From positions 1 to 20,209 of the IMG/VR virus record IMGVR_UViG_3300017764_000157: a stretch of DNA of 20,209 nucleotides, one strand, 5' to 3'. Below, piece by piece: positions 1 through 18,663 of the stretch. The notes beneath the pieces were generated by a model. It was given only the letters and a program-made list of their open reading frames with translations. It was not told where the DNA came from and did not search any database. The stretch is from a virus. The translations under genes and the position numbers were made by a program. The stretch's first letter is position 1. Every line of letters begins with the position of its first letter.

Positions 1-2470
1 AGCCCGTGGCCGACAGTTGAGTTAGCTGCACCTCCCGTATAAGTAACAATACTGAACCCACTTTCTGGGGAACTTCTGACTGTTGATGCGATGCTTGGGG
101 TCGTAATAGATACGCTGGCGTCAACCAGTAGTTTTCCGTCAATTTCGATAGCGCCGACACCTGAAGCGTAGCTACCGTTTGTTGTATAAAATTCAAGTTT
201 GCTAAGTGATGTAATTGCTGTTCCAGTATCTGGTGTAAACCACCCTACGTTAGAAGGAACATTGGTTGCAGCATTGTCATTTATTTTGATAAATTCAGTG
301 CTGGAAGACTGCGCTCCATAAATACGAATAGAGCTTGTGACTGTAATTGGTGTCGTTGGAGTAAAGGTGATAGATGACCCAGTGTTTGCATAACATATTC
401 CACTAGCAGATCCATCGAACATAGTTGCAACGCTATAGCCAGAGAAAGGGGTTCCTGTAACTCTGGAACTCCAGTTATCACTCTGGTTATACAACGAGCT
501 ATTTAAACTACCAGCAGCAATCGTTGTGTTGGAAGATCCGGCGTCCCACGCCCAGGCTGCGTATGTGACATTATTGTCATTTACAAGGCTGCTGCTCCCA
601 AGAGTAAAACCGTTGCTGTCAAACGACGTTAATGTGGTGGTTGAAGTTGATTCAGCATTGGTTGAATTGGACTCCAGATATTTATGTACTCCACGAATAG
701 AATCAAACAACTCGTGATCGCCGCTTGCACTTCTTTCTTTTAACCATACAAAACCAGGAGACATTGTAGAATTAGACATTGTCAAAGCCTGCGTTCCAGA
801 ATTACCCGTATATAACTTCGTATCAAAGTAAAGACTGCCATCCGCAATCGTTGAACTTAAATTTGCAGTATTTAAACACTTGTAGCCGCTGACAGGATAG
901 GCGAATACACGTTGGCCGAAGTTAATTACATAAGTTGCAGTTGCTGAATTATCATAATCAGTTACACAAAACACCCAGCCAATGTCAGTCCTTATATTTG
1001 TAAATTGGGTTCCTTGAGACACACCATTTTTGTAACATTGAAGAGTTCCGTTCTCAGCATCAAACGCCCAGCCAAGAATATCTCCAACGGCAAAAGTTGC
1101 TGTTGCGGTACCTGCAGTTGCTGCGCCGCTTGCTGCATTAACATCCCCATTGTATCCAACATAAACACTTATTCCTCCATGTAAATGTGGAGTATTGCTA
1201 GCACCTTGCACATAATCACTATCTCCAGGAAGCATCCCCACCATTGTGTAGTTAGAACCGCTCAATGCGTCTAGCTCAAACTCCCAATACCACTTACCTG
1301 TACCAGCTGGCGTGTAAAAGTTAGCCATATCCAATGGATACCCAGAACCACCACTGGTCGTTGCTTGCAGGTTGCCGTTGCTGAAGGTTGAAGATGATTG
1401 GACAAGAGGGTTCCATGTCGCATAATTGCCCGTGATTTCTCCACCCGCTCCAGTGTCACTTGCTGTGTCGCCGTTGCTTGGGGTGTCAAATAGGGAGTCA
1501 ACTCCTTCTCCGCTAGGCTTTGACGCATATGCTGCGTAGATGTAATCATTGCTTGTTCCGTGAGTCGAAGCAGATGTAGAAGTTAATTTAAACCCATTAG
1601 ACAAAAATTCAACGGTACTTGTAGTATCGCCACCAAGATATGTAGAATCATTTTCAACAACGTTTAAATCTGCCGCCAACTTTTTTGTCACACCACGGGC
1701 TGAGTCAATTATGACCCAAGATCCACCGCCAGAGACCCTTTTGATCAGCACAAATGCAGGCTTAAAACCACAATCAATGGTCTGGTCTGATCCAGTCCCC
1801 GTGTATGCCCCAAACTTGGAAAATCCGGGAATTTCAGACCAGCAATATGCAATTTGAGTGGTGCTAGCAACTAAATTAGAGCCCAGGCTAAAAACTGAAC
1901 TCGTAGGTGATGTCGCATTCCACCAATCATTTCCTGACTGCTTTGCATCAGAAAGGTTTAATTTTAATCGATGATCATTGCCAGTTGCTTCATGATAGAC
2001 CGACCAATTCCCAGAAGATCCTCTAAACTTCGCAAAGATCATTTTTGGGGCGCTGGACAAGCCGTGGCCAACGGTACATGCCGAACCCCCATCAGTAAAG
2101 CTGACAATGCTGAACCCATAAGTATTATTTGCCGAGACAGAACTTGTTATCGTTCCAGCAGTATTAGACGACGCAGCGCCACCGGCCTTCCAGCACCAGG
2201 CTACAAATGTTTGACCATTACCATTTACATAGCCTCCATAGCCAACAGTAAACCCATTGCTGTCAAACGATTGAAGATCGTTGGCATTGGTTCCTTCGGC
2301 ATCAGTTAAATTAGACCTAAGACTTTTAGTAGCGCCGCGCACTGAATCATTCAGCATGTGGTCATAGGCAGCACTTCTTGCCTTGATCCACACAAAGTCC
2401 GGCTGAAATGCCAAGCCACTAATTGCAGTGTTAGTAGTCCCGTTGCCGGTATAAGTAACAACATCCATCC
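1..2470 (-). repeat. Repeated DUF7483-like units within the giant receptor-binding gene
   Basis: Divergent protein-level repeats of about 100 residues lie at roughly 2470-2170, 2120-1810, 1810-1510 and 800-525, and a fifth begins at 70. Shared signatures are a (V/I)V(T/S)(Y/F)T start, a P.(F/M)(V/I)...(K/R) strand, a D..(R/L) segment, (L/F).SNGF and a closing YAAWAW, VAWCW or YAAYA strand. A SPRY-like domain (about 1420-890) interrupts the series between the third and fourth units. The DNA copies have diverged too far to be recent exact duplications. Unit edges were set by eye. Confidence 0.7.
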
Positions 2471-3686
2471 CTTGGTTAGCAGTCGCGAGGCCAAGTGCTG
2501 ATGCCGTTAAGTTATTAACAGTCCAGTTATTGGCGGGGCTGACACCACTTGTGTCCGTACCAAGCGCAGCGTTGCTGCTGTTGTCCGCAAAGTCGAGGTG
2601 GAAGGAGTTGTCGGCAAGGGATACGCCGGAGTCAATAAGCTGCTTACCATCTACGATAAGCCCTGCCAGTGCTGTCCAGTCGTTGCTTACGTTAAGAGTA
2701 ATTGCTGTGATTGATGCTCCAAAAGTTGAGTAAGGGTTGCTTACAACTGTTGAAGCAATATTAGCTGAATCAACTGGTGTTATTGCTACTGAACCATTGC
2801 TACATGTAAAGGTAATGTTGCCATTAGAGCTAGTGTTGTGCCAAGCGTAAATTTCAAAAGTGCTAGACGCAGTGAGAGTAATAGCAGCAGGAAGCGTTAA
2901 AGTTGCCGTCCCAGGGAAAAACCCCCACATCTTTCCTGTCCCAAAAGAATCGCCAGGGACGCCAACGCCATTAAACGCTTTGGCCGTTTCATAACCACTC
3001 TGCGCTGCAGTTCCACTGTATGCACCACTGCTCCACGTCTGGCTATTGTCAAACCAACCATACGTCCCAGCGTATGCCTTCGGCACCCACAGGTTATCGG
3101 TGTTAGTTTCCCCGAAATCTGTTGGCGCTAATGCTTGACCATCGATGAAATGTACGTCGGCCATGCAGCCGTCAAAGTATGCAGCATACCTACCAATATT
3201 ATGTGCAGTTGCGCTATTCCAATCCGTTTCAAAACCAGAAGGAACTGTTGTCCCAGATAAGGTTTGTAATACTCCGTTGACCCAAATTTTTGCTCTATCT
3301 GAAGCGGTACTTTCTGTCGAATTGTAAGCTAGAACAATGTGATACCAAGCACTGGGATCCCTAAATACTGCTGCTGTACCTAGCCGAATATTATAACTAC
3401 CAGTATAATCATGAAATTTAAGTGCTTCAGATTCCCAAAACAATGACGTGTTTGGGTGTGCTCCTGCGTAAGTAGAAAATATTCCACCCTCAGTTCCTAA
3501 TGCAGTTCTTTTTAACCATGTACTGTAGGTCCACGTCTTGCGATTACCTGCAGCACTTGGGGTTCTAGATAAATGGGCTGAATCCGAGGCGTTGAAACGC
3601 AAGGATCTTGAAATACCCGCACCACCGCCACCACCAGCAGACTGACCACTAGCGCCAGCAAGAACGTTAGAACCAATGACGCTCAT
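1..3686 (-). CDS. Giant LamG / DUF7483-like / SPRY repeat receptor-binding protein (3' end outside window)
   Basis: I translated this frame codon by codon from ATG 3686 to the left edge: it stays open for 1228 codons with no stop, so the C-terminus is missing. After a Gly-rich linker (about 8-24), residues 28-190 look like a LamG/concanavalin fold (WTYSTWLKR, AYFDG, FIDGQALAPTDFG). Residues 215-361 are a beta-rich module (copy A). Residues 406-726 hold three DUF7483-like units with TYTGNG, P.F.WIK, D..RG and SNGF motifs. Residues 756-933 resemble SPRY (WYWEFEL, GW.FD...G.L..Y.NG). A fourth unit follows (963-1054), then module copy B (1073-1198) and the start of a fifth unit. The start overlaps the upstream stop as ATGA; no clear Shine-Dalgarno is seen. 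Such repeats occur in marine phage tail proteins. A host-surface or glycan adhesion role is inferred. Confidence 0.88.
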   Translation of the reverse strand, partial: MSVIGSNVLAGASGQSAGGGGGAGISRSLRFNASDSAHLSRTPSAAGNRKTWTYSTWLKRTALGTEGGIFSTYAGAHPNTSLFWESEALKFHDYTGSYNIRLGTAAVFRDPSAWYHIVLAYNSTESTASDRAKIWVNGVLQTLSGTTVPSGFETDWNSATAHNIGRYAAYFDGCMADVHFIDGQALAPTDFGETNTDNLWVPKAYAGTYGWFDNSQTWSSGAYSGTAAQSGYETAKAFNGVGVPGDSFGTGKMWGFFPGTATLTLPAAITLTASSTFEIYAWHNTSSNGNITFTCSNGSVAITPVDSANIASTVVSNPYSTFGASITAITLNVSNDWTALAGLIVDGKQLIDSGVSLADNSFHLDFADNSSNAALGTDTSGVSPANNWTVNNLTASALGLATANQGMDVVTYTGNGTTNTAISGLAFQPDFVWIKARSAAYDHMLNDSVRGATKSLRSNLTDAEGTNANDLQSFDSNGFTVGYGGYVNGNGQTFVAWCWKAGGAASSNTAGTITSSVSANNTYGFSIVSFTDGGSACTVGHGLSSAPKMIFAKFRGSSGNWSVYHEATGNDHRLKLNLSDAKQSGNDWWNATSPTSSVFSLGSNLVASTTQIAYCWSEIPGFSKFGAYTGTGSDQTIDCGFKPAFVLIKRVSGGGSWVIIDSARGVTKKLAADLNVVENDSTYLGGDTTSTVEFLSNGFKLTSTSASTHGTSNDYIYAAYASKPSGEGVDSLFDTPSNGDTASDTGAGGEITGNYATWNPLVQSSSTFSNGNLQATTSGGSGYPLDMANFYTPAGTGKWYWEFELDALSGSNYTMVGMLPGDSDYVQGASNTPHLHGGISVYVGYNGDVNAASGAATAGTATATFAVGDILGWAFDAENGTLQCYKNGVSQGTQFTNIRTDIGWVFCVTDYDNSATATYVINFGQRVFAYPVSGYKCLNTANLSSTIADGSLYFDTKLYTGNSGTQALTMSNSTMSPGFVWLKERSASGDHELFDSIRGVHKYLESNSTNAESTSTTTLTSFDSNGFTLGSSSLVNDNNVTYAAWAWDAGSSNTTIAAGSLNSSLYNQSDNWSSRVTGTPFSGYSVATMFDGSASGICYANTGSSITFTPTTPITVTSSIRIYGAQSSSTEFIKINDNAATNVPSNVGWFTPDTGTAITSLSKLEFYTTNGSYASGVGAIEIDGKLLVDASVSITTPSIASTVRSSPESGFSIVTYTGGAANSTVGHG

Positions 3687-4216
3687 GAGTAATTAGCGGT
3701 GAATACACAGTGAATTGATGTCGCGCTACGAACCACATAATCGATCCGATCTACAGCAGCAGCGGCTGTACTTAACGTTGGTGCGGTGCCACCAGCAAAG
3801 TCAAGCTGCGATCCATACGCCAAAGTGCGACTGCCCGTAGCGTCCTGGACAATAAAGATTGATCCGCTTTGACCAGCAACAATGTTTGTTGGGTTATCTA
3901 ACGTCCGGTTTCCAGCCAGCGTTACGGTGAAGTTATTGCTTGCTGCTAAGTCAACACTGATGTTTGCTCCATCGGTCAGCGTTGTAATCTCACCGCGTTG
4001 ACCAGCTGTAAAGGTTTGGGCAACGTCAGTTACAGCAGTGTCAGGGTCTATAGCTGCTTGTGTACTAACAAGCGCAGCGCCTTCTTTCACATACAGCTTG
4101 TCCTGATCTGTTGCGTAAACAACTTCGCCTTCTTGCAGATCCGAAAGACTGCTATTTAAATTTGCGTAGGTGCCTCTGGCTAGCCGGACAGGCGTTCTAG
4201 TTGCTGGTGTTGGCAT
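3683..4216 (-). CDS. Short tail fibre protein with Mtd_N-like N-terminus
   Basis: This is a 177-aa protein. Residues 9-50 (RLARGTYANL, then LQEGEVVYATD and KLYV) match the short N-terminal motif found in phage tropism-determinant and fibre proteins, where R.TRGT..NL..L..GE..YATD..RLY is typical. Residues 78-177 form a beta-rich tip that contains NRTLDNPTN, AGQSGSIFI, GSRTLAYGS and DYVVRSATSI, a C-terminal type I recognise from other phage fibres. There is no enzymatic motif. ATG 4216 shares one base with the TAA of the preceding gene (TAATG), and its own stop overlaps the giant gene's start (ATGA), so the three fibre genes are probably translationally coupled. The family type is seen in the sequence; the role as a fibre or tip spike is inferred. 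Confidence 0.8.
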   Translation of the reverse strand: MPTPATRTPVRLARGTYANLNSSLSDLQEGEVVYATDQDKLYVKEGAALVSTQAAIDPDTAVTDVAQTFTAGQRGEITTLTDGANISVDLAASNNFTVTLAGNRTLDNPTNIVAGQSGSIFIVQDATGSRTLAYGSQLDFAGGTAPTLSTAAAAVDRIDYVVRSATSIHCVFTANYS

Positions 4217-6890: not shown

Positions 6891-9800
6891 TTAAGTCTGC
6901 TGTGTTCCATATCCTATTGCAGTGTACTGAAAATTCCTATCGATGACAGAGCTGCCGTTCTTAAACGTGACAGTAAACCCAGTACCAGTCGGTTCTGACA
7001 TCACGTAGTAATCACCGGAGGCAAGGTCAAACGCTGTAATGCCAACAGCTACCTTCGTATTGCTGTCGGTGTAGAACGCATTGGCAAAAGTGACCGCCTT
7101 GCCATTTGCTGCCGTACCAGATGCAATTGTTGTGCCGTTTTCGGTGCGGCGCTCAAACTGCAATATGGCACCAAGTCGATCAACGATTGGCGTTTGGTCA
7201 ATATGGTCTGCAGTTAGAACAGCTTTAAATTGGAACGATCGGCCAACATAAACGTTATTTTCGAGCGGGATCCAGTCGTCAAACACAAGGTCTGATTCTT
7301 GCTGTAAATCTGAATACGTGCCAATAGCCGTATTTAATTGACCACCCATCCCTGAATGGACAGAGCAGTAGTAATAAAGCGTTGGTGCGCCATCTGCCAA
7401 ATCAATCTTTGTGTAAGCGCCAGCCGTTCCAGGTGTGCCGACAATTGTTACGCCTGTGGTGTAGGCAGAACCGCCACCATGCGTTCCATCGTTAGTTGCA
7501 CTGATTTGCAGAGGATGCGTACTATTGCTGGAATCTGATTGATCAAAAATATATATGTTGCCCTCGGTCAGGCTTAGCGTTTGATTGTCAACGCTCGACC
7601 CGTCAACTCGATATTTGTTTCCTCCGCCTGAAGCGACAACAGTTATGGCGTAAGTGACGGTAGATCCTTCGCCTTGCTCTTGTCGAATCTTGCTGCCATC
7701 CTCAGCAACAATGTCTGAGTCAGTAGCCGTAAGATCTGATTTTCTAAAATAAACCTCAACGTTTGTGTCGTCAGGAATTTCCCCATCAAAGTCAGACCAA
7801 GTGTCAATCAATGCCAGACGGTCATCAATTAAATCACTGGTATAAAGGCCACGAGCTGTAAGCGTGCGTTGCATACGCAGGCTAAACTTGGCGCCGAGAT
7901 CAACTATGCTTTGGAAGAAATACTCACCGTTTAAGAATTGATCTCCCCTTAATGAGTCAATATTTGCAGCAAAAGCATCAAGGTCAGGAATGTCGTCAAA
8001 TGAACCGTCATGAGATAAAACTAAGCCGTCATACGCATCGCTATAAAAAGTCTGAACCTTGTCGCCAGGAAAATCTGAAGGAGTGTCTTCACGTATGACT
8101 TCATAATTCAACCTAGGAATATTGTCGGGGATGTTGATTAAGGCACTGACAGCATTTTGACTGCGTTGCTTTTGTGCGTTTTCAAACTTGAGCAGGTATT
8201 CACCGTTTAGTAATGGCAACACCGCAGATGTTGTTCGAGCTTCAACCTTCCTTAGAAGAGTGCTATTAGGCCAAGTGCCCGTGCCATCTGTACTGCCTGT
8301 GTGCCTAATGACAGCAACAAAGCTTTCAACCTTTTGGCCATCTGCCGTTGGTGACCAACGCAAAACAACTTGGTCAACACCAAAAGCTTCGATTGTTACT
8401 TCCTCTGGATCGGGAGGTAAAACAACTATTGGAAAATCATTGCTACCGTCAGACGTACCACCAACAGCAATCTCACGATTGACTTTTGCCCAGTCAGACT
8501 GATGCTTGTCAGGCTCAGGGCCAACAGCTTTTACCTGGGCATATAAACGCTTCCCTGGCTGCAAGTTTGAATTGACATCTAAAAATGTGTTGCGGGTAAA
8601 AGTTTCGTTCCAGTTGTTAGCTTCACCAACTTTCCACTGCACCCTAAATTCAGCAACAGATCCAACAAGCCCCCTAGTCCAAGAAATTGTTGCCCGATTT
8701 GTTGTATTACGTCCATCATCAACTTGCTGGAATGTAATCTTTAAATCCTGCGGTGGAGTAGGTTTTGCCCCATAGAAGAATGGGTCTGGCAAATCCAAAG
8801 AAGCACTGTCGTCTTCAACGACTGTGTAAAGCCCATCAACGTGTCGCACTCCAACAACGCTGTAAGTCCCTCCTTCTCCTTCTGCAACAGCTAAGCAGCG
8901 ATATTTACGCAAGGCCGCAGAGTCATTCTTGATTGCGTAAAGCGCATTGTCAGGTGGAACTTGAGTGAAATTAGAACTAAGCGTTACCCTTGTTCCGCTG
9001 ACGCTTGCGATTGGCGCGACTTCTACCGTGCCATCCTTCATGACAACGCTTAGCTTGTTATTTGTTCCAGCCGGTAAAACTGCAGGCTGATCTAAATCAA
9101 CAAGGTCTACACGCGCACCAACAATGCGACCAGCCAATCGAGTACCAAGACGCATCTCGTCTGATACTTCAAAGATTTGACCGGGCAACACGTTTAGCCC
9201 TTCAAGACCAACCGAGAATGTGACGGTGTCATCGTGCAGTTTTTCAGACTCAAGTACCCAGCGCCCCATGCGTTGCGCTTGATATTTAGAGCTACAACCA
9301 AATGCAACGATAGATTTTTCTTGTACTCCGTAACTTTCGATTAAGGCTCTGTCTTCAATAACAATAAAGTTAGGCTTGAAGAAATTATCTGGGTCGTTGT
9401 AACGGACACGAACTCTTGTGCTGCGAGTTTTAAGCGATGAACCGTTATAAACAAACGCGCCATTGACAACGTTTGAATTGCTAAAGACATGGATCGCTGC
9501 GAGTGGGCTTGCGTTTTTACCACCAAGATTTCCGTGGTCAGCAGTAATCTGCACGTTGTCTGCTTTCCAAAAAAGCATTCCACGAAAGATACTTGCCATG
9601 TCCTGCAAGACTTCATAAGCACTTGCCTGCGAGCCAAGCACTGTATTAATCGCAAAACGTGCTTCAGGCCCTTCAGGCGTTTGAACCTCTTCGTTGCAGT
9701 ATTTGGCTAACTCGATCAAATCAACCCAATTTAAATTTTCAGGGCTGATAAAATCACCCGCTCCATACCTTGTATTGGTCAGCAAGTCATAAAAACAACA

Positions 9801-12474: not shown

Positions 12475-12791
12475 TGATCATCTGGCACGGAATAAACGTA
12501 CCAAGGAATCTTGGTCTGCGTACAGGCTTTTCGATCATGCTCACTGACTGGTGTCCCTTGTGGGTGTGAATGAACTACGGCTTCAATCGTGCCAGCAAAC
12601 ATCGCACGGGCATAGTCCACAGGATTGATTGCGAAATCTGCAGCTGGGTCTAGCGCAATGTTTCGACAAGGAAAATAACGCCCATCAACGACCAGGCCAC
12701 ACGCTTCGTTGGGGCAAACAGTCTTGGCGTGCTTTACAGCATTAAGCCTGAAGTCTTGCCCCATAGAACCCGCCATAGGGTAGATCGACAT
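12450..12791 (-). CDS. K: Mov34/JAMM metalloprotease (N-terminal half of lambda gpK function)
   Basis: This is a 113-aa protein with the zinc-binding JAMM signature: a Glu in NEACGLVV, then HSHPQGTPVSEHD supplying two His and the distal Asp. The spacing from the second His to the Ser is six residues, one shorter than the textbook x7. I chose ATG 12791 because AGAGG sits 10 nt upstream; a TTG three codons earlier (12800) and internal ATGs at 12776 and 12764 are alternatives. It overlaps the end of gene L by about 50 nt and the NlpC gene by 25 nt. Lambda gpK fuses both activities, so this gene is the N-terminal half. A role in processing tail-tip components is inferred from the family and gene order. 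Confidence 0.87.
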   Translation of the reverse strand: MSIYPMAGSMGQDFRLNAVKHAKTVCPNEACGLVVDGRYFPCRNIALDPAADFAINPVDYARAMFAGTIEAVVHSHPQGTPVSEHDRKACTQTKIPWYVYSVPDDQWLTIKPC

Positions 12792-13773
12792 TGCCGCCAA
12801 ACCTCTTTTTGCAACTTGATAAACGCTTGCCGCAAATGTCGTTAGTCACATTTCCATTGGCATCAACAACTTTGTCTGCAGCAGCAAGCAACGTGTCGTT
12901 AACCGTAAAACACTTGTCTCCTTTGTAGCCGCACTCTGTTCCTCTGTACTTCCAAGGGCAAAACTCCTCAATAGTTCTTCGCGGCAAACTTACGTTGACC
13001 AAATCAATCTTTGGTGCAAGCTCAAATTCAACAAATTGCTGGTTCTCGCCCGAAACTCGATCGATATACCAAGTCTCTACAATCTTGGCATTATCATCTG
13101 CTGTGTCGTTAAAGGTTTGCATTATCAAAGAATCGCCGCCTTCTGTAGTCAAGGCGTCGGCAACATCTGACTCAACCGCAAAAGGCACTTCCTGATTAAA
13201 GTTAGTCGTATCAATAAATTTAGCAAACGTGCGAATCCTTTGGACCTTTGCGCCCAAAGGGTTATACGTCAACATTAAAGTTGTGATTGCATTGTTTACG
13301 TTTGCAACCTTTAGCGTTGGGCGAGGTAATGTTCCTCTCCCTGAAAACTCAAACCCATCAATCTCAACTGGTACAGCTGGGTACGCTTGGCCGCCAAATT
13401 TAATTTCTTCTGTTAGGCCATTTGTACCTGCGTGGTAATACAAAGTAATTGCGCTTCCTCCATTAATTTCTGGCGTTAGATACACCTCAAATAAATCGAT
13501 AATCGCTGTTGGCGCAAGGCGAAGCAGTTCTTCAGCTAACGGTTCAAATGCCTCCCAAGTACACGTCCCATCTACTAACGTTTGCGTGATCTTGAACGGA
13601 AACGCAGGTTCTTGATTAGGGAATGTGGAGTAAGTGTCAAGGCTGTCTGTCGTTCCAGCAACAATGCACTTGAAGCCAAGCGTGTTGTCTTTTACGGGAT
13701 TGGCACGGACTACGTCACCAACCGCATAAGCCTTTCCAGCTTCCCACTTATGTAAAGCGTAGGGATAAGCCAT
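12742..13773 (-). CDS. L: Minor tail protein, lambda gpL-like, with N-terminal binding module and Fe-S cysteines
   Basis: This 343-aa protein has its L domain at about 85-343 (PTAIIDLFEVYL, VEIDGFEFSGRGTLPRPTL). Five late cysteines lie at 272, 281, 288, 314 and 321 (CPWKYRGTEC, ICGKRLSSCKKRF). Lambda gpL is known to bind an iron-sulfur cluster through four C-terminal cysteines; I infer that 272, 281, 314 and 321 are the equivalents. Lambda gpL is 232 residues. The extra N-terminal ~80 residues (KWEAGKAYAVGDVV, FKCIVAGTT, LVDGTCTWEA) look like the small carbohydrate-binding-like module often attached to phage structural proteins. ATG 13773 shares one base with the gene M stop (TAATG), with GAGG close upstream. 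It sits in the lambda M-L-K order. Confidence 0.9.
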   Translation of the reverse strand: MAYPYALHKWEAGKAYAVGDVVRANPVKDNTLGFKCIVAGTTDSLDTYSTFPNQEPAFPFKITQTLVDGTCTWEAFEPLAEELLRLAPTAIIDLFEVYLTPEINGGSAITLYYHAGTNGLTEEIKFGGQAYPAVPVEIDGFEFSGRGTLPRPTLKVANVNNAITTLMLTYNPLGAKVQRIRTFAKFIDTTNFNQEVPFAVESDVADALTTEGGDSLIMQTFNDTADDNAKIVETWYIDRVSGENQQFVEFELAPKIDLVNVSLPRRTIEEFCPWKYRGTECGYKGDKCFTVNDTLLAAADKVVDANGNVTNDICGKRLSSCKKRFGGNVDLPYGGFYGARLQA

Positions 13774-14114
13774 TAGACCTCAAATACCTGGACAAAAGTA
13801 GCGTTGATATTGAATAAATTTAGATATGGCATTGTCTTCGTCCAGCTTTGACAAATCCATTTATAAGTATTCGTATCGTCTGGTGGCGACCAGTTGAACG
13901 ATTCAACGCCCTTGCGAGCTTCTAGAAAATCTTCAATTAAATTTGCATCAGTTGTTGTCCTATTCTGCCAAGTTAAGTCCCAAACTTTTGGATCCTGATT
14001 AATCCCAAAGCTTGCGCGTTGTGAATACCCTGATCCAAATTGAATTGATCGAATATTCGGTTGAGCTTTTTTTGATGCCCCGTAATCTGGAGCAATATCA
14101 GGGAAATTAGCCAT
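13773..14114 (-). CDS. M: Minor tail protein, lambda gpM-like
   Basis: This 113-aa protein is close to lambda gpM in length and character (Phage_min_tail family). Recognisable parts are FPDIAPDYGA, IQFGSGYSQR, VWDLTWQNRT, FLEARKGVESFNWSPP and the closing NATFVQVFEV. M-family proteins join the tape-measure end of the tube to the tip complex. ATG 14114 overlaps the tape-measure TAA by one base (TAATG), and GGAGGA lies 11 nt upstream. The stop overlaps gene L in the same way, so H, M and L are probably translated as a coupled series. Confidence 0.9.
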   Translation of the reverse strand: MANFPDIAPDYGASKKAQPNIRSIQFGSGYSQRASFGINQDPKVWDLTWQNRTTTDANLIEDFLEARKGVESFNWSPPDDTNTYKWICQSWTKTMPYLNLFNINATFVQVFEV

Positions 14115-16978
14115 TAGCTAAGAAGTCCTCCGGGTCGTTTTTGCTTAACCAGCTCAGCCTGCACAGCTGTACCAATTGCAGAGCCAAGAGCCTTAGCATT
14201 TGGCTGATCGCCTTGCACGTTAGATCCAGAAGCATCAACGTTCACAACTACGTTACCAACACCACCACCAGAAGATTCAACACCAAGCCTGCCATTTGCT
14301 CCACGACGCAAAGGCATGATTGCCTCGGTGCCAGCCTCACCCATCAAGCCGTAGTTGCCGACTCCGCCCTGTTTGTACTGGAATAAAGTTGGTTTTGTAA
14401 CTAGACCACCCTTGGCGTAAGGGACAATTCCGTTCTTAGCTACTGCAAGGCCATTTGCTGCCATAGCGCCGACACCACCGGGAATTGTTGTAGGAGGAGT
14501 CATTCCTTTAGTTACAGCTCCTTTCGCTGCGCCAAGACCCAAGAAACTGCCTACTCCTGGAATAGCGGAAAGGGCTTGAAATAGGGCAGCCTTGGCAATC
14601 ATTCGCGACAGGTCTTGCAATATCGACTTGGCCATATCAGCAAAACTTGCCTTGCCAGTAGTGACAAAATCAGCAAAAGCATCTCCAAAACTATTAACTG
14701 CTTGAATGCCAGCCTCACCCAATGCAGTATTGAGATCCATTGCTGACTCAAATACCTCTTTCAAACCATCCTTGAACTTGCCTAGAGGGCTTGAAGCTTC
14801 TTCAAGTGCAGCACGTACAGCCTCAAACTGTTCGGGGAATAGCTTGGTGAGTTCGAAGGCTTGCTGCCTGATCTCTGCTTGTCTACCTTCCTCTTCTGTT
14901 ATCTCTCCTGTTACTAATTTAATCTGGCTGAGAGCAAGTGCTTTTTCTTGCTCTTTCTTGATCTTGTCTTCTGCTTGCTTCCTCTGTCTCTCCTCTAACG
15001 CAAAAATATCATTAGCAGCTTGTACGTTAATTTTATTGATTTCTACTCGTCGTTTTTGAGGAAGAAGTGACTTAGCCGCCTCTAGTGCAATTTTTTGCTG
15101 CGCTAATATGTCCTCTTTAGTTATCTCAACACCTTTTCTCTTTAAATTATTGGCGGCAATCAATGCATCTGCTTCTGGCTTTAATATGTCTTGCGTCCCT
15201 TTGCGGCCACTGCCGCCTTCGTCATCTTCTTCGGCAACAGGGTTGTACTTGAAAGGAGACTTAGGGTCTCTTTTTACAGGTGTAGTCAAACGTTCCAGAG
15301 CTTTATCGAATCCCGCGATTTCTTTTCTAAGTTCTACAATTCTATTCCTAACTTTGATAGGAGCCTCTTCTACGGTTTGCCCCTTGTAAAGAGATCCTAA
15401 CTGATCTTCAAGTTCCTTCTCAGCGGTTGCTCTTAAAGATTTAGTTGAGGAAATTTTTGTTGCTCTTTCTTCATTTGAGAGACTTGCATATGTCTGTCCA
15501 GGCTTAAGCTTGGCAAGCTCTTGCAATTCTTTTTTTTGTCGCCCAAGGGCGTTGGTTACTGCAACAATGCCTGCAACAATGCCTGCAACTGCTAACGCTC
15601 CGCCAAACAATGGGTTTATAGCCATTGAAGCCGTCAGCGCACCAATTCCAGTGGCCGAACCCTTAGCAGCTATGCCTAAGAGTCCAAGCCCTGACGCTAA
15701 ATTTGTAAGGGTACTAATTAAACCTGCGGCAGTAATTATGCCTACAAAGGTTCCTAAGCCTGCCAATGCTGGACCTAAATTGTTAGCCAAGCCAGACATT
15801 GCTTTGGCAATTACTTTTGCTGCCTTAACCATCGATGGCGTTATGTCTTGAATAAATTTTGTGAAAGTATCCTGCAACTCGGCTCCAGTCTCACCCAATG
15901 CCAAGCCAACAGACGCCCTCATTTCATCGAAAGCGACAGTAAGCCTTGTGCCAGCCTCAGCGTTTGAAGCGGCAATTTTTAGAGCGGTTCCAGAGTATTT
16001 AACGCCTAATTCTTCAATAAATGCCATTAACTCATTAAGACCAACCGTTCCTGCTTTTAAATTCTTTTGAAGCTCAGGCAAGGTCATCTTGTTGGCCTTA
16101 GCAAACAAAGTTACAGCACCAGGCAAACGTTCTCCAAGCTGCCCAGATAGCTCTTCTGCGCTGACCTTACCTTTTGAGAACACCTGCACCATGGCAGTAA
16201 TCGCGCCTTTCACATCCTCGGTACTGCCACCAGTGGCTTTAATTGCCGCAGTTACGTTTTTAAATGTTGTCTCGGCATCTTGCAAAGGTCCGCCAGCCCC
16301 AGTTACAGCCGCAGTCAATCGAGTTACACCTCGGACTGCATCTTGCTGCGGAACGTTTAGAGAGCGTGTGACTTGAGCCGCGGTATCTAAAGCTGATGTG
16401 TAATTTTCTTGAGATCCAGCAACACCACGAAGAGCTATCTGAAGTTTTTGAATTTGCGCCGAATAATCAGCAGCAGCGCCAATAGATTTCCTAATACCAC
16501 CAACTTGAGCGCCAATAGCAGCGCCAGCGAAAGCTCCCTGAACACCGCCAAAGGCACCTAGTGCGCCGCCGATCGCACCTTCAGGCCCACCAAAAATGCC
16601 GCCAGAAATAACGGCGCCAGCCACCTGTGTTGCCTGACGAGCCCCGCCACCACCTCTTTGACCTTGCGCCTTGCTTAATTGCTTTTCATACTTTCCAATG
16701 TCAGCTGTTAGCTCTTTGAACTCCTTGCTATTGATGTCTGCTTCTCTTCTTAATGCCCTTAATGCTGTAACTTGCCCTTCAATCGTGCTGATGCTTCTAT
16801 TGCCTTGCTTTGCAAAGTCGTTTATTGATCTTCTTACTTTTTCAATAGAAGGAGCCGTCTTGCCTGTTATTACTTTTAAGTTTTTTATTGAATTGCCAAT
16901 CTTGTCAATTATCTGCTGAGAGCCAGATCCCGCCTTAAAATCAAGCCTGATGGAAAGAGTGTCAATTGCCTTTGCCAT
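14114..16978 (-). CDS. H: Tail length tape measure protein
   Basis: This 954-aa protein sets tail length and is thought to pass through the membrane during DNA entry. Residues 1-110 are helical and charged. Residues 110-165 are Gly/Ala-rich (GGPEGAIGGALGAFGG). Residues 160-350 match the tape-measure N-terminal domain (SAEELSGQLGERLPGAV, AGTVGLNELMAFIEELG, NAEAGTRLTVAFDEM). Residues 400-478 hold three or four hydrophobic stretches that could span a membrane. Residues 620-730 form a coiled coil rich in Lys, Glu and Gln. Residues 743-812 resemble the lambda tape-measure C-terminal region (FGDAFADFVTTGKASFADM). The YGLMGEAGTEAIMPLRRG motif near 870-890 is typical of tape-measure C-termini. At about 0.15 nm per residue the tail would be near 140 nm. 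The start overlaps the gpT stop by 17 nt. Confidence 0.95.
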   Translation of the reverse strand: MAKAIDTLSIRLDFKAGSGSQQIIDKIGNSIKNLKVITGKTAPSIEKVRRSINDFAKQGNRSISTIEGQVTALRALRREADINSKEFKELTADIGKYEKQLSKAQGQRGGGGARQATQVAGAVISGGIFGGPEGAIGGALGAFGGVQGAFAGAAIGAQVGGIRKSIGAAADYSAQIQKLQIALRGVAGSQENYTSALDTAAQVTRSLNVPQQDAVRGVTRLTAAVTGAGGPLQDAETTFKNVTAAIKATGGSTEDVKGAITAMVQVFSKGKVSAEELSGQLGERLPGAVTLFAKANKMTLPELQKNLKAGTVGLNELMAFIEELGVKYSGTALKIAASNAEAGTRLTVAFDEMRASVGLALGETGAELQDTFTKFIQDITPSMVKAAKVIAKAMSGLANNLGPALAGLGTFVGIITAAGLISTLTNLASGLGLLGIAAKGSATGIGALTASMAINPLFGGALAVAGIVAGIVAVTNALGRQKKELQELAKLKPGQTYASLSNEERATKISSTKSLRATAEKELEDQLGSLYKGQTVEEAPIKVRNRIVELRKEIAGFDKALERLTTPVKRDPKSPFKYNPVAEEDDEGGSGRKGTQDILKPEADALIAANNLKRKGVEITKEDILAQQKIALEAAKSLLPQKRRVEINKINVQAANDIFALEERQRKQAEDKIKKEQEKALALSQIKLVTGEITEEEGRQAEIRQQAFELTKLFPEQFEAVRAALEEASSPLGKFKDGLKEVFESAMDLNTALGEAGIQAVNSFGDAFADFVTTGKASFADMAKSILQDLSRMIAKAALFQALSAIPGVGSFLGLGAAKGAVTKGMTPPTTIPGGVGAMAANGLAVAKNGIVPYAKGGLVTKPTLFQYKQGGVGNYGLMGEAGTEAIMPLRRGANGRLGVESSGGGVGNVVVNVDASGSNVQGDQPNAKALGSAIGTAVQAELVKQKRPGGLLS

Positions 16979-17727: not shown

Positions 17728-18663
17728 TCAGGTGTAAACGATCTCTACCTCGTCGTTTCCAGCACTGCTAGGAATTGCTGTGAATGGAATTTCCAGCATT
17801 GCAATCCCATCAAGATCGCCATAAGAGACATCAGCAATGTCGCCTCGTGCAGAGTCAACCTTGACGATGTTTCCAGCACCGGTTCCATGCGTGAACTCAA
17901 TGATCCCAAGCGTGTCAGCCAATGCTGTCGCGAAGTAGTCCTTAGTGGCAAGCGCAACAGCCTCAATGCTGAGGTTCCCACTCACGTTCCTGTTTGTGAG
18001 AAGAACTTCTCCAGTGCCGCCAACAAGTTCTCGATAGACAATTTCATTGCCGATATCAAGCGAATAAGTTGACAACTTGGCAGTAGTCAGCCCCATTACA
18101 TTGAGACCAGTAGTGTTGCCTTGCTTAAAGATCAAAGGAGTTGCTTGATCCGCATAAGTAACGCTTGGCTGAGCACTGTCATCTGGTGGCACATAGATTC
18201 CAGTTAGCGTGAAATCAAGTGTTGGGATTTCGCCCACGTTTGCCGAAACAGTAAAAGTGCCCCGAGCACCAGTCACTTTGTGTCTGACACCATCAACGTT
18301 GTAGTGGACAGTGACTGAATCGAAACCTGTGCTGACAGGGGCGTAGGTGACGCTTGTTCCAGCCGCAACAGTCTCGCTAAAGCCACACGCTTTTAGAGCT
18401 TTGCCATACCTAGGAGCAGTCCCAGCCGTACCTGAACCGGCAAGCTCAACACTGAAGGTGCATTCAACACGAGTATTAGCTAGTAACTGCTCAGAAGCTC
18501 CTAAATAAGGACGAATCAAGTCACGGCTAACAATGTCACTCTGTTGAGGCACAATGTTCAAATCGCGAACAAGGACAGCGTCAGCCCCCGTCGGAGTCGG
18601 ATCCGTCCCGTAAGTCGACTCCTCCTCGATCAGAATCAGACGTTTGCGGAGTAGCAGTGCCAT
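17728..18663 (-). CDS. Major tail tube protein
   Basis: This 311-aa protein starts LLLRKRLILIEEESTYGTDP, with DAVLVRDLNI, DIVSRDLIRPYLG and VECTFSVELAGSG, a pattern I associate with siphovirus tube proteins. The middle (VTYAPVSTGFDSVTVHYN, VHYNVDGVRHKVTGARGTF) and the end (LEIPFTAIPSS) are beta-rich, as expected for the tube fold. The protein would stack as rings around the tape measure. ATG 18663 is well supported by AAGGA 8 nt upstream. The start lies 83 nt inside a small upstream open frame, and the gene is followed by a strong terminator, which fits a highly expressed structural protein. Lambda gpV has 246 residues; no separate C-terminal Ig-like domain is obvious. Confidence 0.88.
   Translation of the reverse strand: MALLLRKRLILIEEESTYGTDPTPTGADAVLVRDLNIVPQQSDIVSRDLIRPYLGASEQLLANTRVECTFSVELAGSGTAGTAPRYGKALKACGFSETVAAGTSVTYAPVSTGFDSVTVHYNVDGVRHKVTGARGTFTVSANVGEIPTLDFTLTGIYVPPDDSAQPSVTYADQATPLIFKQGNTTGLNVMGLTTAKLSTYSLDIGNEIVYRELVGGTGEVLLTNRNVSGNLSIEAVALATKDYFATALADTLGIIEFTHGTGAGNIVKVDSARGDIADVSYGDLDGIAMLEIPFTAIPSSAGNDEVEIVYT

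Follow-up and report, generated by a model that had tools for sequence, protein, structure and literature searches.

The DNA analysed here, referred to as the window (20,209 nucleotides, IMG/VR record IMGVR_UViG_3300017764_000157), encodes the tail module of a marine bacteriophage, a lambda-like siphovirus, whose genes lie on the minus strand in the order tail tube, tape measure, M, L, K, I and J, followed by tail-fibre genes (Table 1). J has both the sequence profile and the position in the tail gene order that characterize the lambda gpJ family, since its residues 3-1235 match phrog_31 'central tail fiber J' (E 7e-134) and it matches Pfam Phage-tail_3 (E 5e-20). A sequence-only reading of the window had placed a cupredoxin-like domain with a full set of candidate copper ligands in this protein, at positions 7310-7655. 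There is indeed a domain there, although its best limits lie slightly upstream, and the stretch that is extra relative to homologues with an empty site spans approximately J aa 1040-1163 (window 7311-7682).

Table 1. Features of the tail module and of the distal part of J (positions in the window; A2 is the broad alignment of domain relatives described in the text).
Feature	Position	Strand	Basis
Tail tube	17728-18663	-	
Tape measure	14114-16978	-	
J, tail tip/central fibre host-specificity protein, 1302 aa	10799-6891	-	phrog_31, Pfam Phage-tail_3, gene order
Upstream part of split host domain, J aa 900-1040	7680..8102	-	Has a homologue in empty-site J that runs directly into the downstream part; model m6e21440a42a8
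Inserted cupredoxin domain, J aa 1044-1158 (~115 aa)	7326..7670	-	AlphaFold2 pLDDT 93.9; structural matches (Foldseek, VIA-align) to rusticyanin and to cupredoxin domains of laccase and nitrite reductase
Candidate copper ligand His1095 (domain position 52)	7515..7517	-	Invariant in A2; pairs with the copper-binding His in amicyanin and plastocyanin
Candidate copper ligand Cys1145 (domain position 102)	7365..7367	-	Invariant in A2; aligned with blue-copper ligand
Candidate copper ligand His1148 (domain position 105)	7356..7358	-	Invariant in A2; aligned with blue-copper ligand
Candidate axial ligand Met1151 (domain position 108)	7347..7349	-	Invariant in A2
Downstream part of split host domain, J aa 1159-1245 (DDWIPLENNVYVGRSFQFKAVL...)	7065..7325	-	Empty-site J comparison; model of aa 880-1302
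C-terminal beta-rich tip after insert, J aa 1246-1302	6894..7064	-	Predicted strands, pLDDT ~80-92

The four residues proposed as ligands were all found where they had been reported, and the same is true of the amicyanin-type C-x2-H-x2-M spacing and of the 50-residue gap between the first His and the Cys. In sequence, the domain thus has the type-1 copper ligand set His...Cys-xn-His-xn-Met in its canonical places, with a loop of amicyanin length, a spacing that alone is no sign of specific kinship to amicyanin. The C-x2-H-x2-M motif occurs only once in J, and a chance motif was ruled out because the complete domain recurs elsewhere with its ligands conserved.

The cupredoxin fold and its insertion into J are near certain. 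An AlphaFold2 model of the domain, built on an alignment of 42 viral sequences (A1, the close set), has a pLDDT of 93.9 and a pTM of 0.87. When it was compared to the PDB with Foldseek, the first 12 matches (E<=0.001) were rusticyanin and the three-domain Hyphomicrobium nitrite reductase (HdNIR). VIA-align superposed 99 residues on the N-terminal cupredoxin of 2dv6, the Hyphomicrobium denitrificans nitrite reductase (Z 10.1, 2.4 A), and 107 residues on rusticyanin 1rcy (Z 8.1). The model displays the Greek-key beta sandwich of the cupredoxin superfamily, and its best structural matches are cupredoxins across residues 1-115, which bears out the fold that had been claimed. The first His is found directly before a strand, the Cys at a strand end and the second His and the Met in the next loop, which is the canonical placement of cupredoxin ligands.

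Evidence from sequence profiles points the same way but is less decisive. Neither the domain alone nor the narrow A1 profile gave a meaningful match by sequence to solved structures, and only a broader alignment, A2 (36 members that are 25-75% identical to the window, ligand-less members being excluded), reached the blue copper proteins. The comparison to plastocyanin and amicyanin that the sequence-only reading had advised was run with hhalign against a reference set also including rusticyanin and pseudoazurin, each sequence being checked against its PDB copy; it gave a probability of 93% (E 3e-7) and paired the first His, the Cys and the second His with the known ligands of these four proteins. 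Against all PDB sequences, the top matches of A2 were type-1 copper proteins (nitrite reductases, plastocyanins, amicyanins and rusticyanin), for example nitrite reductase at 6e-5 and plastocyanin at 0.004, with His, Cys, His and Met in register, including in plastocyanin 1kdi. Such values are modest, ranging from 6e-5 to 0.3, and among the lower matches antibody chains score similarly, so that the fold is the stronger evidence. No match was found between the window domain and Pfam PF00127 (Copper-bind) or PF13473 (Cupredoxin_1), and none of the 42 sequences in A1 scores above the Pfam or NCBIfam cut-off for any copper family. Relatives reach up to 20.4 bits with Copper-bind, the score of one member from Woeseiaceae, just under the cut-off of 21.2, and it is these scores below curated cut-offs that keep the domain out of both Pfam families.

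The domain thus shares its fold, the order and register of its ligands and an amicyanin-length loop with the small blue copper proteins and the N-terminal type-1 domain of HdNIR, and a long segment between first His and Cys with rusticyanin. In contrast to these proteins, it has no prolines in the ligand loop, possesses a conserved GTHGGG..EYTTGV segment of its own and falls below the Pfam cut-offs. Moreover, blue copper proteins are free, exported electron carriers, whereas the J domain is an insert in a virion protein.

That the sequences on both sides of the insert belong to one J domain was confirmed by homologues with an empty site and by a model of J aa 880-1302. A comparison of J homologues, as had been suggested, covered both flanks in 87 distinct proteins, of which 19 have the cupredoxin and 68 lack it. 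In the nearest cupredoxin-free proteins, ..EDG.KI..ED.. is followed by ..QESDL.FE.WIPLEN.. with only 2-4 residues in between, as compared to ~121 in the window. In the model (pLDDT 76), whose database matches are mostly to the insert, the insert sits between two host-domain strands and is flanked by low-confidence, probably flexible linkers, into one of which the strand at aa ~1012-1021 leads. A quick tree of the J flanks requires at least three to four gains or losses of the cupredoxin. In a tree of the domain itself, nine ligand-bearing J sequences, including the window, form one starred group (99), while J inserts lacking the ligands are placed elsewhere with weaker support and perhaps represent a second insertion at the same site. 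At this position, unrelated inserts of 45-67 aa are found in more distant J homologues, marking a hot spot for insertion. At least three kinds besides the cupredoxin were seen there (L331, L274-L295 and L262/L268/L341), namely a beta-rich 'ItItkssHG..' kind of 45-53 aa, a 'GYKILTVGTTDFVAIGA' type and a 67-aa 'LITQAGDSLIAN' type.

The protein that hosts the insert is a homologue of lambda gpJ, which also has beta-sandwich domains (FNIII-A and the HDIV sandwich) inserted between neighbouring strands (PMC10721106). The distal part of lambda gpJ holds the central-fibre and receptor-binding domains, and by this comparison the cupredoxin lies beyond the FNIII domains, towards the receptor-binding tip (PMC10721106). 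The difference with lambda is that the window cupredoxin is C-terminal to the FNIII domains and is optional among close relatives.

The whole 115-aa unit was found again in hundreds of marine viral contigs. The only four invariant columns in A2 are the four candidate ligands, an invariance that is partly selected since ligand-less members were left out; a count over 118 non-redundant relatives (mean pairwise identity 56%, minimum 14%) therefore weighs more. All four ligands, His-Cys-His-Met, are kept in 112 of these, and their columns rank 1, 2, 3 and joint 5 in conservation among the columns of the domain. Both synonymous codons are widely used at both His and at the Cys, which argues that the ligands have been maintained by selection rather than by recent copying. 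Some search patterns contained the Cys and the second His, and none the first His or the Met. In the subset of 22 relatives independent of these patterns, all four ligands are present in 16 and the ligand columns are 73-86% conserved, which is high but not uniquely so. G37, Y40, F42 and Y100, which are not ligands, are about as conserved as the ligands.

The sequence-only reading had named, as evidence against itself, homologues in which the domain persists without the ligands; such homologues do exist, in a minority. Examples are J inserts in which the four positions read Phe/Cys/Gln/Met (L248, L242/L247) and the domains found in S-P4, S-RIM2 and PSS2. The six deviants among the 118 relatives lack 2, 2, 3, 3, 3 and 4 ligands, two of them being partly gapped so that their counts are less certain, and none lacks just one. 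This grouped loss is best read as loss of a functional site and not as counter-evidence, although the ligand-less J inserts do indicate that the metal site is dispensable for the presence of the domain in J. Two of these inserts (L247:5439-5771 and L248:425-751) have lost both His ligands but kept Cys and Met, and they have two extra Cys directly after the domain (LCTIRGQACPN), possibly a switch to a disulphide.

The domain is not restricted to J. In T4-like cyanophages, it is found in baseplate wedge, wedge-fibre connector and virion structural proteins, and in pelagiphages and Methylophilales phages in tail fibres. Its metagenomic relatives lie in proteins that match families of tail fibres, minor tail proteins and virion structural proteins. 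Cultured carriers include S-TIM61 and S-B68, with Synechococcus as host, and HTVC028P, with Pelagibacter as host. Cyanophage PSS2 has a stand-alone 112-aa version in its tail region that has lost ligands; this cupredoxin-like protein (gp80, L216:3977-4321) is annotated as a baseplate wedge subunit and has three of the four ligands replaced. PHROGs matches were rejected as an identity for the domain, because the tail-fibre, baseplate and virion families concerned merely contain it. Genomes of SAR86 and Woeseiaceae encode the domain in proteins with what was judged by eye to be a lipoprotein-like start (..LAACGGGGG..). In the two cases checked, the neighbouring genes are metabolic (enoyl-CoA hydratase, short-chain dehydrogenase, FAD hydroxylase), arguing that these are not prophages. 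In cultured Photobacterium species, the domain forms part of open frames longer than 2700 aa (L122, L123 and L125). Ig-like, FNIII and BACON modules are known to be promiscuous in phage structural proteins, and the cupredoxin resembles them in being a beta-sandwich inserted into and shuffled among unrelated virion proteins, but it keeps a full copper ligand set where these modules have no defining metal site.

Taken together, these findings moderately favour a scenario in which a shuffled, host-facing cupredoxin module, belonging to a marine family found in both phage virions and bacterial surface proteins, brings a functional type-1 copper site to J. It is quite probable that the J domain holds a single copper ion in a type-1 site whose C-x2-H-x2-M loop is as long as that of amicyanin. 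That it works as a host-contact module is suggested by the kinds of virion protein carrying the domain and by its presence in bacterial surface proteins, but the chances of this are about even. The insert itself is a complete cupredoxin domain, placed on probably flexible linkers within a loop of J's distal, host-facing region. Since J is made in the host cytoplasm and undergoes no export step, copper would probably enter the site after lysis, being drawn from seawater or acquired at the next host's surface. If J is a trimer like its lambda counterpart, as is expected, up to three cupredoxin copies would sit beside the receptor-binding tip, where the copper site would keep the docking face rigid or join in binding a surface partner, perhaps the same one as that of the marine bacterial surface proteins bearing the domain. 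Against this scenario, phage proteins fold where free copper is scarce, and most of the J homologues compared (68/87) do without the domain.

Other explanations account for parts of this evidence. The domain could be a loop-inserted spacer or adhesin merely stiffened by copper or zinc, much as iron stiffens the HxH tip of T4 gp37. Virions may plausibly need such stability in seawater, the linkers around the domain are modelled with low confidence and are probably flexible, and there is a precedent in the HxH iron sites of T4 gp37-type tail fibres (the Trojan horse or Ferrojan idea), which have been discussed for marine phages (PMC11705849). Both cases involve a metal site in a host-contacting tail protein, yet T4 gp37 holds octahedral iron by pairs of His, whereas the J candidate is a single-chain, copper-type Cys/His/Met site. 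This explanation is unlikely, because ligand-less virion members persist with their fold-defining residues kept, indicating that metal is not needed for folding, and because the full His/Cys/His/Met set exceeds what a stabilizing site needs.

The same ligand-less copies would fit if the domain were a metal-free, Ig-like sandwich of cupredoxin descent binding a host glycan or protein, its ligand residues being kept for packing or surface reasons. Phage tails commonly acquire beta-sandwich modules, and the comparable conservation of G37, Y40, F42 and Y100 would fit as well. However, in relatives that are 25-75% identical to the window hardly any core residue is as durable as the ligands, which also line up with those of real copper proteins, and packing would not predict that ligands are lost in groups of two to four but never singly, so that a purely adhesive role appears distinctly improbable. 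As for a redox device, which would swap electrons with a host surface protein or sense copper or redox state to trigger the tail, the four ligands of an electron-transfer cupredoxin are present and cysteines of the L protein, described below, may match the Fe-S cluster described in lambda gpL (PMC10721106), in which case the tip may hold a second metal centre. Nevertheless, no partner protein was identified, which makes electron transfer possible but less likely, and triggering cannot generally depend on a domain found in a minority of homologous J proteins; we therefore give this idea very little credence.

The cupredoxin fold, the copper-ligand pattern and domain shuffling in phage tails are already known. 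What appears to be new is that a blue-copper-type site is conserved within a module shuffled among virion proteins: the papers searched do not describe it, and the scanned libraries contain no curated family for it. Specifically, no prior description of a cupredoxin or blue copper domain together with phage, cyanophage or tail fibre was found in open-licence papers, and an earlier mention elsewhere is possible; that family libraries give it no name would explain why the domain has gone unnoticed. If the shuffled cupredoxin module does hold copper in J, blue-copper-type metal sites would be spread across the host-contact apparatus of abundant marine phages and a metal would be added to phage adsorption. 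The question would then arise of how a protein made in the cytoplasm obtains its copper, and there would be a testable link among phage tails, host surface proteins and ocean copper chemistry. A bolder and rather doubtful extension is that several unrelated marine phage lineages use a horizontally shuffled blue-copper domain for copper-dependent host recognition, shared with surface proteins of marine bacteria and filled with copper outside the cell, so that virions would form a copper-binding pool in seawater.

Three other proteins of the window, all encoded on the minus strand, deserve mention. The L homologue (12742-13773, Phage_tail_L) retains C-terminal cysteines at positions 272, 281, 288, 314 and 321, which may be the counterparts of the ligands of the Fe-S cluster reported in lambda gpL (PMC10721106), in which case a second, different metal centre could sit in the same tail tip. 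Downstream of the tail-fibre genes, a large protein with DUF7483, laminin-G/concanavalin-like and SPRY domains (3-3686) is likely to be another host-contact protein. The product of 3683-4216 displays a weak match to the N-terminal domain of the major tropism determinant Mtd (23.2 bits, for a cut-off of 26.3).
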